From positions 310,001 to 374,000 of the forward strand of contig CP138327.1 in assembly GCA_037956075.1 (NCBI GenBank): 64,000 nucleotides of DNA. The letters are read 5' to 3'. The stretch is from Catillopecten margaritatus gill symbiont (GTDB lineage Bacteria; Pseudomonadota; Gammaproteobacteria; PS1; Pseudothioglobaceae). A program made the position numbers and the translations under genes. The notes under the pieces are model-generated. The model searched no databases and was not told where the DNA came from. It saw nothing but the letters and a program-made list of their open reading frames with translations. Shown piece after piece: positions 23,542-28,926 of this stretch (positions within the stretch are counted from its first letter, which is position 1; each line of letters starts with the position of its first letter).

Positions 23542-23922
23542 ATGCTCGCTAAACGCGAGCATTCTTGTATGGAGCTGCATAAAAAACTGACTCAATGGCA
23601 TGAAGAAGACGAAGTTGAAGAAGCCATCGCCAAACTCACCAAAGAAAATTACCAATCTGATGAGCGTTTTGCCGGTGAATTTATCCAAATGCGTTTTAAC
23701 CAAGGCAAAGGCCCAATTAAAATCTCAATAGACTTACGACAACGAGGTATCGAGCACTTTGATTTATCTGAATACGATTTTTTTGCCTTAGCAAAAGAAA
23801 TCAGAGTAAGAAAATACGGCGAACAAGCCCCCAGTAATTACAAAGAAAAAGCCAAACAACAACGCTTTTTGCAATCTCGTGGATTTGATTTTGAACAAAT
23901 TAATTGTTCTTTTGAGTCATAA
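23542..23922 (+). CDS. recX: recombination regulatory protein RecX
   Basis: RecX binds RecA filaments and limits their extension. The product shows the RecX core: AKREHSCMELHKKL, then WHEEDEVEEAIAKLTKENY with DERFAGEFI, QGKGPIKISIDLRQRGI. From the first ATG it is 126 residues, short for the family. Family-like sequence (AYNSALGM) continues upstream of that ATG in the same open frame back to 23479, and the ATG has no usable Shine-Dalgarno. A CTG at 23509, 8 nt after aaagg and overlapping the recA stop, may be the real start. Confidence 0.88.
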   Translation: MLAKREHSCMELHKKLTQWHEEDEVEEAIAKLTKENYQSDERFAGEFIQMRFNQGKGPIKISIDLRQRGIEHFDLSEYDFFALAKEIRVRKYGEQAPSNYKEKAKQQRFLQSRGFDFEQINCSFES

Positions 23923-23980
23923 AAAAGAACACCTATCAAAGATGGGCGTCGGACCAAGTGTGTTTAGGAATAATGGCGAT

Positions 23981-24033
23981 AATGGGGTGGGCTACTTTTA
24001 TCATCCTATTATAAAAAGTAGCCTACCCCCATT
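23981..24033. repeat. 53-bp palindromic repeat, copy 1
   Basis: A long inverted repeat: the left arm aatggggtgggctacttttat pairs with its near-complement at 24011-24033 (one indel and one mismatch) around the loop catcctatt-like centre. A second copy in the same orientation is at 25043-25093. Both arms and the loop are conserved between copies. It directly abuts the attC site. Confidence 0.85.
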
Positions 24034-24038
24034 ATTTT

Positions 24039-24092
24039 TAACGCTTGGATTCACCTGACGCATTAGCGGTCAGGTGGAATGATTTGTTATGC
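24039..24092 (+). other. integron attC site (59-base element)
   Basis: This 54-bp site has the full attC layout. The left end is TAACGCTTGG and the right end is GATTTGTTATGC. The two halves pair as TAAC/GTTA, then a 6/5-nt unpaired spacer, a 3-bp ATT/AAT stem, a single extrahelical G, and an 8-bp stem CACCTGAC/GTCAGGTG around a 9-nt loop. The spacer sizes, single bulged base and TAACGCTTG opening are the same as I recall for the aadA cassette attC. The R' box GTTATGC at 24086-24092 is also found in Vibrio repeats. No intI gene is in the window. Confidence 0.8.
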
Positions 24093-24095
24093 ATT

Positions 24096-24350
24096 TTATC
24101 TGCTATAAATATTTTTTCTATGCCCAATACTAATAACTAAAATTATCAATTCATTATCATTAATTTCATATATCACCCTATAACTTCCAATTCTTATACG
24201 ATATGCTTCTCTGCCAGTTAATTTTTTAGTATTGTAATATGGCTCATTGGCTAAGGCGTAAATCTTATTTATTATTTTAGTTTGAAATGGTTCACTTATT
24301 TTAGCCAATGATTTTTTGGCATTTTTCTGTATCTTTAAATCGTATTTCAA
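24096..24350 (-). CDS. type II toxin of the RelE/ParE superfamily
   Basis: The 84-residue basic protein has the RelE-family pattern: KIQKNAKKSLAKIS at the N-terminus, a PYYNTKKLTGREAYRIRIG centre, and YRVIYEINDNELIILVISIGHRKNIY at the end. Such toxins usually cleave mRNA on the ribosome (RelE) or poison gyrase (ParE); the GREAYRIRIGSYRVIYEI pattern favours RelE. It lies 4 nt after the antitoxin gene on the same strand and its stop is 3 nt from the attC R' box. It is therefore probably the content of an integron cassette, inserted in reverse orientation. Confidence 0.88.
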   Translation of the reverse strand: MKYDLKIQKNAKKSLAKISEPFQTKIINKIYALANEPYYNTKKLTGREAYRIRIGSYRVIYEINDNELIILVISIGHRKNIYSR

Positions 24351-24354
24351 AATA

Positions 24355-24552
24355 CTAATGATTTTTTATTTCTTTTACTGCCTGACTGAACGATATAACT
24401 TCACTATTGGTTTTTTTAGCTTTATCATAAACCTCTATATCATCTAGCATTTCAAGCTGTTGCATTATTTTTTGCCATTCATTCATTTGAATAACCACTG
24501 CTTTTTGAGTTTGTGTATCATCAATTATGTATTGTGGATGTAGTGCTAACAT
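24355..24552 (-). CDS. antitoxin of the RelE-type pair (RelB/Phd-YefM-like)
   Basis: The 65-residue protein (ALHPQYIIDDTQTQKAVVIQ, then MNEWQKIMQQLEMLDDIEVY) has the short antitoxin layout: a small N-terminal strand region, a W-x-x-(I/L)-x-x-x-L-E helix, and a C-terminal toxin-binding tail. It precedes the toxin by 4 nt. Antitoxins of this kind neutralise the toxin and repress their own promoter; the AT-rich DNA above 24552 is where that promoter should lie. Confidence 0.85.
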   Translation of the reverse strand: MLALHPQYIIDDTQTQKAVVIQMNEWQKIMQQLEMLDDIEVYDKAKKTNSEVISFSQAVKEIKNH

Positions 24553-24611
24553 ATCGTCTTCCTTGTATTTTTTATGCCTATAATTATATCAAATTTTACA
24601 TTTCATCCACA

Positions 24612-25067
24612 CTATTTTAAATTTGTTATCGGTAATTGTTTCATTTTTATTATCTGAGAATCTATTTTTTTTAGTCGTATTTGTTTATTTAGATGTATTC
24701 TTCTATCCTTTACCTCTTGTTTAAACTTAGTACTCATTGACTCTTTAAATGACCAAAAAATACTATCACTTAATTTTTTTCTAATTTATCGAAAGATTTA
24801 TACAGTTTTGCCAATCTTTTGCTATCCTTGTCTTTTGGATTTTGTAATTCCAATTTATAATTTTTTCAATAAATCATGCATATACAACATATCTTGTTTT
24901 TGGACTTTGTTTAGAATGCCACTATCTTCTAATTTATAATAGTCTTGAAATTCCTCAATAACACTTTCCTCAATAACACTTCTTGGGTAATTGATAGTGG
25001 GTGTGTGGATTTGAATTAACCGATTTACAAGATTTGGCAGATAATGGGAGCAGACTATTTTTATCAT
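24612..25067 (-). pseudogene. frameshifted gene remnant of unknown function
   Basis: On the minus strand one protein-like sequence runs through three frames. Frame 1 (to the stop near 24856) ends MHDLLKKL; a shift in an A run leads to YKLELQNPKDKDSKRLAKL; a second shift in an A run leads to LSDSIFWSFKESMSTKFKQE and ends at the tag at 24612-24614. Both breaks are in homopolymers. The N-terminus is cut off by palindrome copy 2. A 15-bp tandem duplication (24953-24982) repeats the peptide SVIEE. I do not recognise the family. Confidence 0.65.
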
Positions 25068-25093
25068 CCTATTATAAAAGTAGCCTACCCCAT
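25043..25093. repeat. 53-bp palindromic repeat, copy 2
   Basis: Same element as 23981-24033: left arm beginning aatgggagcagactattttt, the same tcatcctatta centre and a right arm ending tagcctaccccatt. The left arm has diverged more than the right. The DNA between the copies (attC, toxin-antitoxin pair, gene remnant) is about 1 kb. Confidence 0.85.
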
Positions 25094-25350
25094 TATTCGC
25101 TAATTATTTAAAACACACTCTGACTCCAATTCCATTTCAATCAGATTGAAGCACAACTTAAGAGTAGAATCAAACTAAAATCAAGGGAAGGGGGTAAGAA
25201 TTCAAACGGTAAAATAAAATCAAGTGATACTACCCTTTTTGATTGACCCCTTTGATTTAAAAAATCAACCTAATCTCATTGGCGTATTTTTTTCAAGCGT
25301 GTGCTGAGTAAAAAAACCGTAAAATAGCCTAGACTACAAATAAAAAAATT
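25094..25350. other. AT-rich gap upstream of the ATPase gene, no gene seen
   Basis: I find no gene or RNA here. The DNA is AT-rich with one G-rich patch (near 25186-25197). A TAAAAT box at about 25320 could serve the ATPase gene. No Shine-Dalgarno precedes the ATG at 25351. Confidence 0.4.
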
Positions 25351-26317
25351 ATGAAAATAAAGATAGAAAATTGTAATAATATTACAGAAGGTTTAATTAA
25401 TATTGAAACAAAGAAACTAAACATTAGATTTGGTATAAATGGAACAGGTAAAAGTACAATAGCAAAAGCTATTCAGTATCAAGTTGAAGATCCAGAAAGC
25501 TTAACAGATTTATTACCTTTTAAATTGCGGGAAGAAAATCAAGACAATCTAAGTCCAAAAGTTGAAATTAATAATGGAGAAATCAAGTCTATTTCTATTT
25601 TTAATGAAGAATACATTAAACAGTTTCTTTTTAAGCAAGATGAGCTTGTAAGTAATAGTTTTGAAATTTTTATAAAAACTCCAAACTATACCGAAACAGA
25701 AGAAAATATTGAAGAACAATTAAAAGAAATAAAAAAAGTATTTTTAAGCAATGAGGAATTAGATCAAGCCATTTCAGATTTTGAATCTTTATCTAACAGT
25801 TTTAAAACAACAAAAAAAGGACTTTCTAATGCCTCGGCTATTTCCAAGGGTTTAAAAGATGGAAATAAAATAGAAAATATTCCAGAAAACTTAAAAGAAT
25901 ATGCTCCTTTTATTCAAGATAAAGAAAAATGTGTTAAGTGGTTAGAATGGCAAATAAAAGGAAATAATTTTAGTGAAAATCATAACAACTGCCCTTACTG
26001 TGTTTCTCCAACTGATAATGAAAAAAAACAAACAATAAAATCTGTTTCAGAAAATTATGATAAAAATGTAATTAAAAATTTTATTCTAATAATAAAAGCA
26101 ATAGAAGATTTAGGTGCTTATTTTTCCAAAAAATCAAAAGAAGAATTGGAAAGAATATTAAAAAAAACTGATGGACTATTAGAAGAAGAAAAGACTTATA
26201 TCATCACAATAAAAAGTCAGATAGATAACTTTTTAGAGAGATTAAAAAATCTAAAAAATATTTCATTTAATAACTTAAAAGATGATGAAAAGATAGAAGA
26301 AAAAATAAAAAATTTTA

Positions 26318-27065
26318 GGGTCTTAACTAGTTAAGCAATTTTTAATTGCTTAAAATACTAGTTATGAAAAGGAAAAATAAGTATTACAACCGTTCAAGAC
26401 TTTCAGAGGCAAAATTTAGAGAAGTTATTAAATATTTTTCAGTGGATTTAAGCGCTACTCAAATAGCACAATTAACCAATCTAAATTTAAACACTGTTAA
26501 TAAAATTTTGACACTTGTAAGGATAAGAATTTTTGAATTATCAGACCAATATCAACTTCAATCTGCCCCACTAGTGGGGCAGATTGAAGTTGATGAAAGC
26601 TACTTTGGTGCTCGGCGCGTCCGTGGGAAACGCGGCCGAGGTGCCAGGGGCAAGATAATCGTATTTGGCTTATTGAAACGAGGTGATAAGGTTTATACTC
26701 AAATTATAGAAAAGTGCGATAGAATAACCCTTCACAGCATAATAAAAGACAAAACATCAACAGATAGTATTATTAATTCTGACGGATGGCGTGGATATAA
26801 TGGCTTGGTAGATTTTGGCTATAAAAAGCATTATCGTGTTCATCATGGTAAGAATGAATTTGCCAGAGGAAATTCTCATATTAACGGCATCGAATCTTTT
26901 TGGGGTTATGCTAAAATTAGACTAGTAAAATTTAAAGGAATGAATAAAAAAATGTTTAAATATCATCTTAAAGAATGTGAATTTAGATTTAATAATCGTA
27001 AGCAAGATATGTATAAAATCTTACTTGATAATTTTAGAAAAGAGCCGCTTAACTAGTTAAGACCC
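26318..27065 (+). mobile_element. IS1595-type insertion sequence, 748 bp, with exact ends and 8-bp target duplication
   Basis: Perfect 19-bp terminal inverted repeats, gggtcttaactagttaagc at 26318-26336 and its complement at 27047-27065, enclose one transposase gene. The flanks are the identical 8-bp AAATTTTA (26310-26317 and 27066-27073). Eight-base duplications and this transposase type fit the IS1595 family (IS1016-like group). Each end contains the 12-bp palindrome ttaactagttaa, and a second palindrome (ttaagcaatt/aattgcttaa, 26331-26353) overlaps the left end. Perfect ends indicate recent transposition. Confidence 0.95.
26364..27056 (+). CDS. IS1595-family (IS1016-like, ISXO2-type) transposase
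   Basis: The 230-residue DDE-type transposase starts at ATG 26364 (MKRKNKYYNRSRLSEAKFRE), with an N-terminal helix-turn-helix (SATQIAQLTNLNLNTVNKIL) and the core beginning VDESYFGARRVRGKRGRGA. The second acidic residue is in SDGWRGYNGLV and the third region is HINGIESFWGYAKIRL, followed by a CEFRFNNR tail. The stop codon lies inside the right terminal repeat. It is full length with no frameshift, so the element is probably active. Confidence 0.94.
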   Translation: MKRKNKYYNRSRLSEAKFREVIKYFSVDLSATQIAQLTNLNLNTVNKILTLVRIRIFELSDQYQLQSAPLVGQIEVDESYFGARRVRGKRGRGARGKIIVFGLLKRGDKVYTQIIEKCDRITLHSIIKDKTSTDSIINSDGWRGYNGLVDFGYKKHYRVHHGKNEFARGNSHINGIESFWGYAKIRLVKFKGMNKKMFKYHLKECEFRFNNRKQDMYKILLDNFRKEPLN

Positions 27066-28280
27066 AAATTTTATTATAGTTATTGATGAATTATTTGATA
27101 AATTAAAAGCAGATAAAACAGAGAAAATAGTAATTAATATTAACAAATCTTTAAACACTACACTTGAAAAAATCGGAACACTTAAGGGAAATATAAATAA
27201 ACAAAAACAAGAAGTTGAAAACTCAATAAAAAAACATCAAAAAAATATTAACCAATTTCTTAAAAATGCAGGATATAAATATGAAGTTTTAATTGATGAG
27301 GAAAATAAAATAAAACTTCAACATATTGATTGTAAAAATAATATTTTAGGTGGAGATCAACATTTAAGTTTTGGAGAAAAAAATGCTTTTGCTTTAGTAT
27401 TATTTATGTACGAAACTTTATCTAAAAATCCCAATTTAATTATTTTAGATGACCCTATTTCTTCATTTGATAAGAATAAAAAATATGCAATTTTACAAAT
27501 GCTTTTTAGGGAAGATACTTCTTTTAAGAGTAAAACTGTTTTGATGCTAACTCATGATATTGAGCCAATAATCGACTCTGTAAAAGCACTTGGCCGTATA
27601 TTTAAAAATCAAACAAACGCTAGTTTTTTGCAATATAAAGATGAAAATATTACTGAAAAAGAAATTAAAAAAGAAAACATATTAACTTTTACACAAATTT
27701 GTAAAAATATCACCGAAGATAAAAATATTAATAAAATATCAAAATTAATTTATTTAAGAAGGAATTTTGAAATATTAGATGACAAAGGTGATGAGTATCA
27801 AATATTATCAGATTTATTTCATAAAAGAACAAAAGAAGATGCAAAAACTTATAGACAAGAAAAAGATAGCAGTTTAACAGGTGAACAATTTGAAATAGAT
27901 TTTAGCGCTGGAATGAAAAAACTTAAAAAAGTTATTTCTGATTTTAATTATGAAGACTTGTTAAAAACAATTAAAAATCAAGAGGGGTTAAAGAAAATTT
28001 ATGAGGCTGCTGAAAATGGATATGAAAAATTACAATTGTTTAGAATTATAAATGGTGAATTTGCCAAGCAGGATAGTTTTAGTGATGTGATGAAAAAATT
28101 TATAAATGAAACTTACCACATAGAAAATGATTTAATTCATCAATTAGATCCAAGAGAATATGATCTGATTCCAGAGTTTATTGTTAAAAAATGCAATGAT
28201 TGTATTTCTGATTTACCAAAATAATGGCTTGTGATTAAAAGGGCGCCGCCTCCCTTCCCCGCCTCCCCCCGCGAATTGCC

Positions 28281-28526
28281 ATGTTGAGAAAAATACCAGC
28301 AAAAATTCGTTTTTTATCGATAGAGTCATTGTTGGAAGATTTGGGTGCGGTTGATTTTGAGGATATTCATTGGGTGATTGTTGGCGGGGAGAGTGGTGCT
28401 CGAGGAGTAAAAGGGGGGCGCCACCCTTTTATTTTAATATTTTAGTAAAAACAATGGCTTACCCTTTCACCCGAGAAAGTCAAGAAGAGGGCTAATGGGA
28501 AATATATTGCAGATACGCCACTATAA
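28281..28526 (+). pseudogene. C-terminal remnant of a DUF5131 (phage Gp37/Gp68-like) gene
   Basis: The frame from 28281 reads KIPAKIRFLSIESLLEDLG and then DIHWVIVGGESGAR, the hallmark of DUF5131 proteins (usual form: IPAKVRFLSIEPLL...WVIVGGESG). It is broken after GARG by a hairpin insertion (stem taaaaggg/ccctttta, 28408-28431) and stops at 28443-28445. A last family-like piece, KRANGKYIADTPL, runs to the stop at 28524-28526. The function of DUF5131 is unknown to me; it occurs in phages and mobile DNA. Confidence 0.75.
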
Positions 28527-28567
28527 ACATATAAACCATATTAAGAAAATTTATTTGGGTTTTAAAA

Positions 28568-28723
28568 ATGAGCATAAAAACACAAATAGAATGGACAGGG
28601 AAAACATGAAATCCGACCACGGGTTGCACGAAGGTCTTGGCTGAATGTAAGCAAAATTACCAAGCGTTTATGCCTGCTGTGGAGAATGTGAAGTTATTGG
28701 AAAATATTTTCAACCGCATTTAA
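28568..28723 (+). pseudogene. N-terminal remnant of a DUF5131 gene with a nonsense codon, fused to an unknown tail
   Basis: ATG 28568 opens MSIKTQIEWTGKT, then TGA (28607-28609), then NPTTGCTKV. The family normally reads EWTxxTWNPxTGCTKV, so the TGA replaces the conserved Trp. After KV the frame no longer resembles the family and reads AECKQNYQAFMPAVENVKLL to a taa at 28721-28723. This N-terminal piece lies downstream of the C-terminal piece at 28281, so the order is scrambled or two gene copies have decayed. Confidence 0.72.
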
Positions 28724-28764
28724 GTTTGTTTGGTGTGGTTCGAATATTATATGATGTTTTTTAG

Positions 28765-28926
28765 GTTTACAAAGTAAAATGGCTTGAATTCGCCAGTAAA
28801 GAATTAAATGATGTTGCAACTAATTATTTTGATGTTAGTGAAAATCGTTTACGCAAGCATCAATTACCAAATGAAATTCCCACCAAGCGAAATCCTTTAA
28901 AACGACCAAAAAAATGGCAGAAATGA
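28765..28926 (+). pseudogene. short gene-tail remnant
   Basis: A 53-codon open frame right after a tag stop reads YKVKWLEFASKELNDVATNY and ends KRNPLKRPKKWQK at the tga 28924-28926. It has protein-like composition but no start codon of its own. It looks like the 3' end of a lost gene. Family not recognised. It overlaps the start of the next ORF by 13 nt. Confidence 0.4.

Follow-up and report, generated by a model that had tools for sequence, protein, structure and literature searches.

An IS1595-family insertion in a candidate anti-phage gene with an RloC-like ATPase in the Catillopecten margaritatus gill symbiont

Closest described systems and the restored protein

Lamassu LmuB and Septu PtuA are SMC/Rad50-like defence ATPases that work with separate nuclease subunits. 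PrrC, a protein of ~390 aa, combines an ATPase with a C-terminal effector. RloC (~770 residues) has an ABC-ATPase, into which a helical arm bearing a CPxC knuckle is inserted, and a C-terminal triad, Arg-X3-Glu-X36-52-His, each residue of which is required for tRNA cleavage (PMC2610378). It is activated by DNA breaks via its ATPase and zinc hook (PMC3874168), and it was found at type I or III restriction loci in 8 of 72 cases (PMC2610378). Restriction-modification (R-M), RhuM and Fic genes have been described as neighbours of PrrC/RloC HEPN-ABC proteins (PMC3710099).

Here we analysed a stretch of 64,000 nucleotides from the genome of the Catillopecten margaritatus gill symbiont (the window), in which a candidate defence gene is cut in two by an insertion sequence (IS). 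The empty site was rebuilt in silico by removing the IS and one copy of the flanking duplication AAATTTTA, which yielded a frame of 705 open codons with zero internal stops. The parts of the gene are as follows.

25351..26317, first target duplication included, plus strand: left half of the gene, with the N-lobe of the ABC-ATPase (Walker A at residues 30-36), a helical arm and a CPYC knuckle (residues 214-217; CPxC invariant in 71 homologues); matches PDLC04889 positions 1-317 (E 1.7e-114); G+C 24%
27067..28224, plus strand: right half, with the arm end, ABC signature LSFGE, Walker B LDDPISSFD, H-loop THD and the C-terminal domain; matches PDLC04889 positions 323-688 (E 4.5e-145)
27658..28221, plus strand: C-terminal putative effector domain, 188 aa, all helical (70-sequence alignment; AlphaFold2 mean pLDDT 91.7; no PDB or BFVD match)

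The first-pass annotation had proposed a 705-residue defence protein with Walker A, CPYC, ABC signature and Walker B, and all of these elements were recovered. Walker A (NGTGKST), the CPYC knuckle, LSFGE, LDDPISSFD and the H-loop THD are near-invariant across 62-71 intact homologues. Both halves match, over adjoining ranges, a single PADLOC model of 693 positions, PDLC04889, which belongs to the defence candidate PDC-S06. The broken gene is a fresh member of this already catalogued but uncharacterised family. The literature that we found held no functional study of PDC-S06 or PDLC04889 and no tested activity for PDLC04889 members, and an anti-phage role of the family is that of a candidate.

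We compared the family with an RloC set, in which the published triad was confirmed as R670, E674 and H728. Alignment of the two with hhalign gave a probability of 99.2% over residues 1-487, and the CPYC motifs of both were aligned. The motifs of an RloC-type Rad50-like ABC-ATPase (Walker A, signature, Walker B and H-loop) were found to be invariant, and the CPxC in the ATPase insert, a putative zinc hook, corresponds to that of RloC. Judged from these alignments, the family and RloC are homologous in the portion that comprises the ATPase and the CPYC knuckle. PrrC differs from the PDLC04889 family in having no CxxC arm, and its profile matches over a short stretch only (36.6%). Lamassu LmuB and Septu PtuA gave weak PADLOC matches to the window protein; in contrast to them, the PDLC04889 family has its effector domain fused to the ATPase and no constant partner.

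The AAA_13 assignment (PF13166) made from the sequence held for L037, the closest intact homologue, which exceeds the gathering cut-off with 54 bits, but not for the window protein itself, whose left half scores 29.9 against a cut-off of 36 bits and whose right half has no match. A full-length model of L037 (pLDDT 87) matched SMC, Rad50 and Lamassu heads in Foldseek, and PDB sequence searches returned matches limited to ABC-transporter ATPases and similar heads.

The C-terminal domain and its possible function

The residues R34, R35, E38, S51, Y98, Y122, R129, H154, E156, Q162, P165 and P172 (domain numbering) are invariant in 70/70 aligned sequences of the C-terminal domain. They form an R-R-x-x-E motif, a further R and an H-x-E motif; in right-half numbering, the R-x3-E corresponds to R231/E235 and the His to H351, which sits in the conserved segment F-I-N-E-x-Y/F-H (F-I-N-E-T-Y-H in the window). 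Like RloC, the family thus has an invariant Arg-X3-Glu followed by a later His, but this next invariant His lies 115 residues further and not 36-52, the C-terminal domains of the two cannot be aligned, and the proteins of the family are shorter (~700 residues). The invariant residues therefore resemble the RloC/PrrC nuclease triad with a different spacing.

The domain alone gave no match in Pfam or PHROGs (E<=0.001), and a PADLOC search with it led to no assignment, in agreement with the first-pass view that it belongs to no nameable family. The best match of its model in a Foldseek search of the PDB had an E of 1.2, and the HEPN helical fold was absent among these PDB matches. With hhalign, comparison to the C-termini of RloC, PrrC and a bridging family (one member of which, from a Streptococcus phage, bears the annotation RloC) gave probabilities of 0.3-0.8%, and in a segment test with column shuffles the score was not clearly over that of the shuffles. 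These failed comparisons carry little weight, because the C-termini of RloC and PrrC likewise go undetected by each other (0.2%) and sequence tests are powerless at such distance; the RloC C-terminus is itself without any Pfam or PADLOC match. An I-N-x3-H motif common to the PDLC04889 family, PrrC and the bridging family is suggestive only as a sign of relationship. PHROG 2801 covers both the PDLC04889 and the bridging family, and the Arg and His of a member map within ~10 profile positions of those of the bridging family; this co-mapping was discarded as evidence because it is too loose.

We further examined the genes next to the relatives. Type I R-M genes (at least two of the Hsd subunits HsdM, HsdS and HsdR on the same strand) were found at 12 of 76 loci, with the relative mostly immediately 3' of hsdS. 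Same-strand type III Mod/Res genes also occur, and in 5 loci the relative follows immediately after brxL in a PglZ-BrxL-gene order. Fic, RhuM and Schlafen-AlbA genes are further neighbours. R-M or BREX operons are at least as frequent a setting for the PDLC04889 family (12/76 type I, 5 BREX) as for RloC (8/72, PMC2610378); these are raw locus counts, and the argument rests on the same-strand, near-gapless layout. Frequent linkage to type I R-M is also a feature shared with PrrC, while no R-M or BREX genes are linked to the broken gene in the window. Since there is no constant partner at most other loci, the gene seems able to work alone.

A further arrangement concerns the sbcDC genes, which lie directly downstream of the relative in 4 loci. 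In three of these (L050, L082 and L086), BREX loci of unrelated bacteria, the PDC-S06 homologue stands directly between brxL and sbcD-sbcC, and in L047 the order is the same without brxL, suggesting a BREX accessory module.

Taking the locus as a whole, we consider it probable that the gene encoded a horizontally acquired, single-gene anti-phage protein built like RloC, probably an RNA cutter, that is now inactivated by the IS. In such a protein, a helical arm carrying a putative zinc knuckle (CPYC) would divide the Rad50-type ABC-ATPase head, and a toxic domain would follow at the C-terminus. By analogy with RloC, head and knuckle would most likely sense DNA that is broken or foreign, or the loss of a restriction or BREX complex with which the protein is partnered; hydrolysis of ATP would then free the toxic domain, as in RloC (PMC3874168). 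Zinc binding, DNA sensing and ATP-driven release are all inferred from this analogy. With its invariant Arg, Glu and His, the freed domain would cut RNA (tRNA being the likeliest target) and stop translation; this predicted RNase activity and its target are read from the invariant residues. In the host genome, a resident IS1595-family element has recently inserted and turned the gene off. The data themselves show the identity and family of the gene, its single-gene nature, its horizontal origin and its recent interruption.

The description "PrrC/RloC-like" given to the protein at first is correct for the ATPase and unproven for the effector. It is possible, although we think it unlikely, that the likeness to RloC ends with the sensor. 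The C-terminal domain would then be a new effector of another kind, without RNase activity, or would bind a partner and so recruit an R-M, BREX or SbcCD enzyme. This would agree with the domain being unmatched in Pfam and PHROGs (E<=0.001), the PDB and BFVD, with the sbcDC genes that immediately follow the gene in 4 loci, and with PADLOC matches to other PDC-S06 subfamilies, which end with the ATPase, while C-termini of the L190 and L191 types match several subfamilies. Against it, the C-termini of RloC and PrrC fail the same comparison with each other, and the invariant R, R, E, S, Y, Y, R, H, E and Q appear catalytic, not structural. The earlier suggestion that the effector may be new is thus allowed by the data but not demonstrated, given the resemblance to the RloC triad and the low power of the sequence tests. 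We put forward with much reserve the idea that the domain has a new effector fold, distinct from HEPN and from anticodon nucleases alike, and that, under the control of an RloC-type DNA sensor, it acts as a common accessory to type I/III restriction and BREX systems.

Interruption of the gene by an IS1595-family element

The element that separates the two halves has the following features.

26318..27065, plus strand: IS1595-family insertion sequence, 748 bp, with perfect 19-bp inverted ends
26318..26336, plus strand: left terminal inverted repeat GGGTCTTAACTAGTTAAGC
27047..27065, plus strand: right terminal inverted repeat GCTTAACTAGTTAAGACCC
26310..26317, plus strand: left copy of the 8-bp target-site duplication AAATTTTA
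27066..27073, plus strand: right copy of the 8-bp target-site duplication AAATTTTA
26364..27056, plus strand: IS1595-family transposase, 230 aa, open (NCBIfam NF033547, E 1.2e-47; Pfam DDE_Tnp_IS1595 PF12762, E 1.3e-23)
26551..26594, no strand assigned: 44-bp perfect palindrome within the transposase gene (RNA fold z-score -6.8)

The ends GGGTCTTAACTAGTTAAGC and GCTTAACTAGTTAAGACCC are identical at 19/19 positions, with no identity further inward. A DDE transposase, terminal repeats and an 8-bp duplication, as expected of the IS1595 family, were all found, so that the element, its family and its flanks are exactly as first annotated. The host genome, a single contig of 1,542,691 bases, holds 12 full-length copies (99-100% identity) and 2 fragments. 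Four of the 12 full-length copies are identical, the window copy among them; a perfect 8-bp duplication is retained at 7 of the 12, and the window copy alone has hit a long open frame. Terminal repeats or a duplication arising by chance were ruled out by the element ends, the flanks and the genome copies.

The identical IS copies, the duplications and the lack of any stop or frameshift in both gene halves indicate that the insertion into the candidate defence gene is recent, which bears out the original call of a very recent event.

ISAcra1, also of the IS1595 family, is like the window element in transposase family, 8-bp duplication and short inverted ends; the two differ in that identity is ~73-75% over part of the element and the 44-bp palindrome is absent from ISAcra1. 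This palindrome is identical in IS copies of a sister species whose overall identity is 91%. In another species 42 of its 44 positions are kept, and in L184 it is altered on both sides of the centre. It may form an RNA hairpin that limits translation of the transposase.

We judge the gene to be inactive in the host strain on the basis of its predicted products. The left product, of 327 aa, terminates 5 residues inside the IS and contains no ABC signature, Walker B or effector, and the earliest ATG/GTG/TTG of the right half, at 27406, lies beyond the ABC signature. The right-half frame has a terminal stop only, while the other two frames hold 35 and 70 stops. That the interrupted gene still works, either through separate production of its two halves or by serving as an on/off switch under IS control, is in our view highly improbable: both halves are stop-free, the IS copy is intact and its excision is possible in principle, but the left product ends within the IS and the right half has no start from which it could supply the ABC signature. 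The notion that the halves come from two families, or are unrelated genes brought adjacent by the transposon, has nothing in its favour and is refuted by the single reading frame that spans both halves in 76 of 80 homologous loci retrieved from genomes in GTDB, by the match to positions 1-317 and 323-688 of one model and by the perfect duplication; the first-pass annotation had rightly treated the halves as one gene.

Origin and genomic setting

The G+C content of the broken gene is 23-24%, compared with 39% for the window, and the gene is absent from every one of the 82 other genomes in Pseudothioglobaceae, the family of the host (the genome collections contain one genome per species). One genome of another genus in this family (G022) carries a different PDC-S06 subfamily, PDLC04890 (E 1e-260). 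In the tree, the window gene falls in a clade (100/100) with homologues from Paceibacterota and Gracilibacteria, nested in a Bacteroidota-rich group, and L037 has 71% and 63% identity to the two window halves. These sequence data indicate that the gene was horizontally acquired, with its nearest kin in Paceibacterota and Gracilibacteria.

One of the exceptions to the single frame, on a Gracilibacteria contig (L038), is open over 732 codons once UGA is read as glycine. This homologue (positions 128-2323) has 18 such in-frame UGA codons and 69% identity to the right half, and is evidently a case of defence-gene exchange across phyla and genetic codes.

Relatives are present in many phyla, in 905 plasmid records of one collection (565 from E. 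coli) and in prophages (18 viral contigs); none was found in the phage records searched, and the right junction sequence had no match in viral contigs.

The gene lies between recX (23542-23922) and a gene at 28914. In five sister species (L185-L189) the same two flanking genes enclose 0.8 to 5.2 kb of differing content: AIPR and RhuM, a RelA/SpoT-domain gene, an outer-membrane-like gene, or nearly nothing. The stretch 23923-28913 is a small variable defence hotspot in the genus.

Other features were observed around the gene. A ParE-family toxin gene (24096-24350, minus strand; Pfam E 1e-12) is its neighbour, with a possible antitoxin ORF immediately upstream of the toxin gene, and a 39-nt inverted repeat (23979-24017 and 25058-25096, 85% complementary) lies on both sides of the toxin region. 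Remnants of a DUF5131 gene occur at 28239-28442 and 28610-28720 (E 5e-16 and 0.02); their order is scrambled, with the profile's middle portion located upstream of the N-terminal one.

The broken copy itself is unremarkable, a costly or idle defence gene that a resident IS has disabled. Its family has a wide distribution, is found within restriction and BREX operons and carries at its C-terminal end a highly conserved domain without a match in the libraries used. Should this domain prove to be an RNase, the RloC/PrrC group would be broader than described; otherwise, a known sensor would here be joined to an effector of a new kind. The remaining interest lies in this unassigned, strongly conserved effector domain, which is worth testing.
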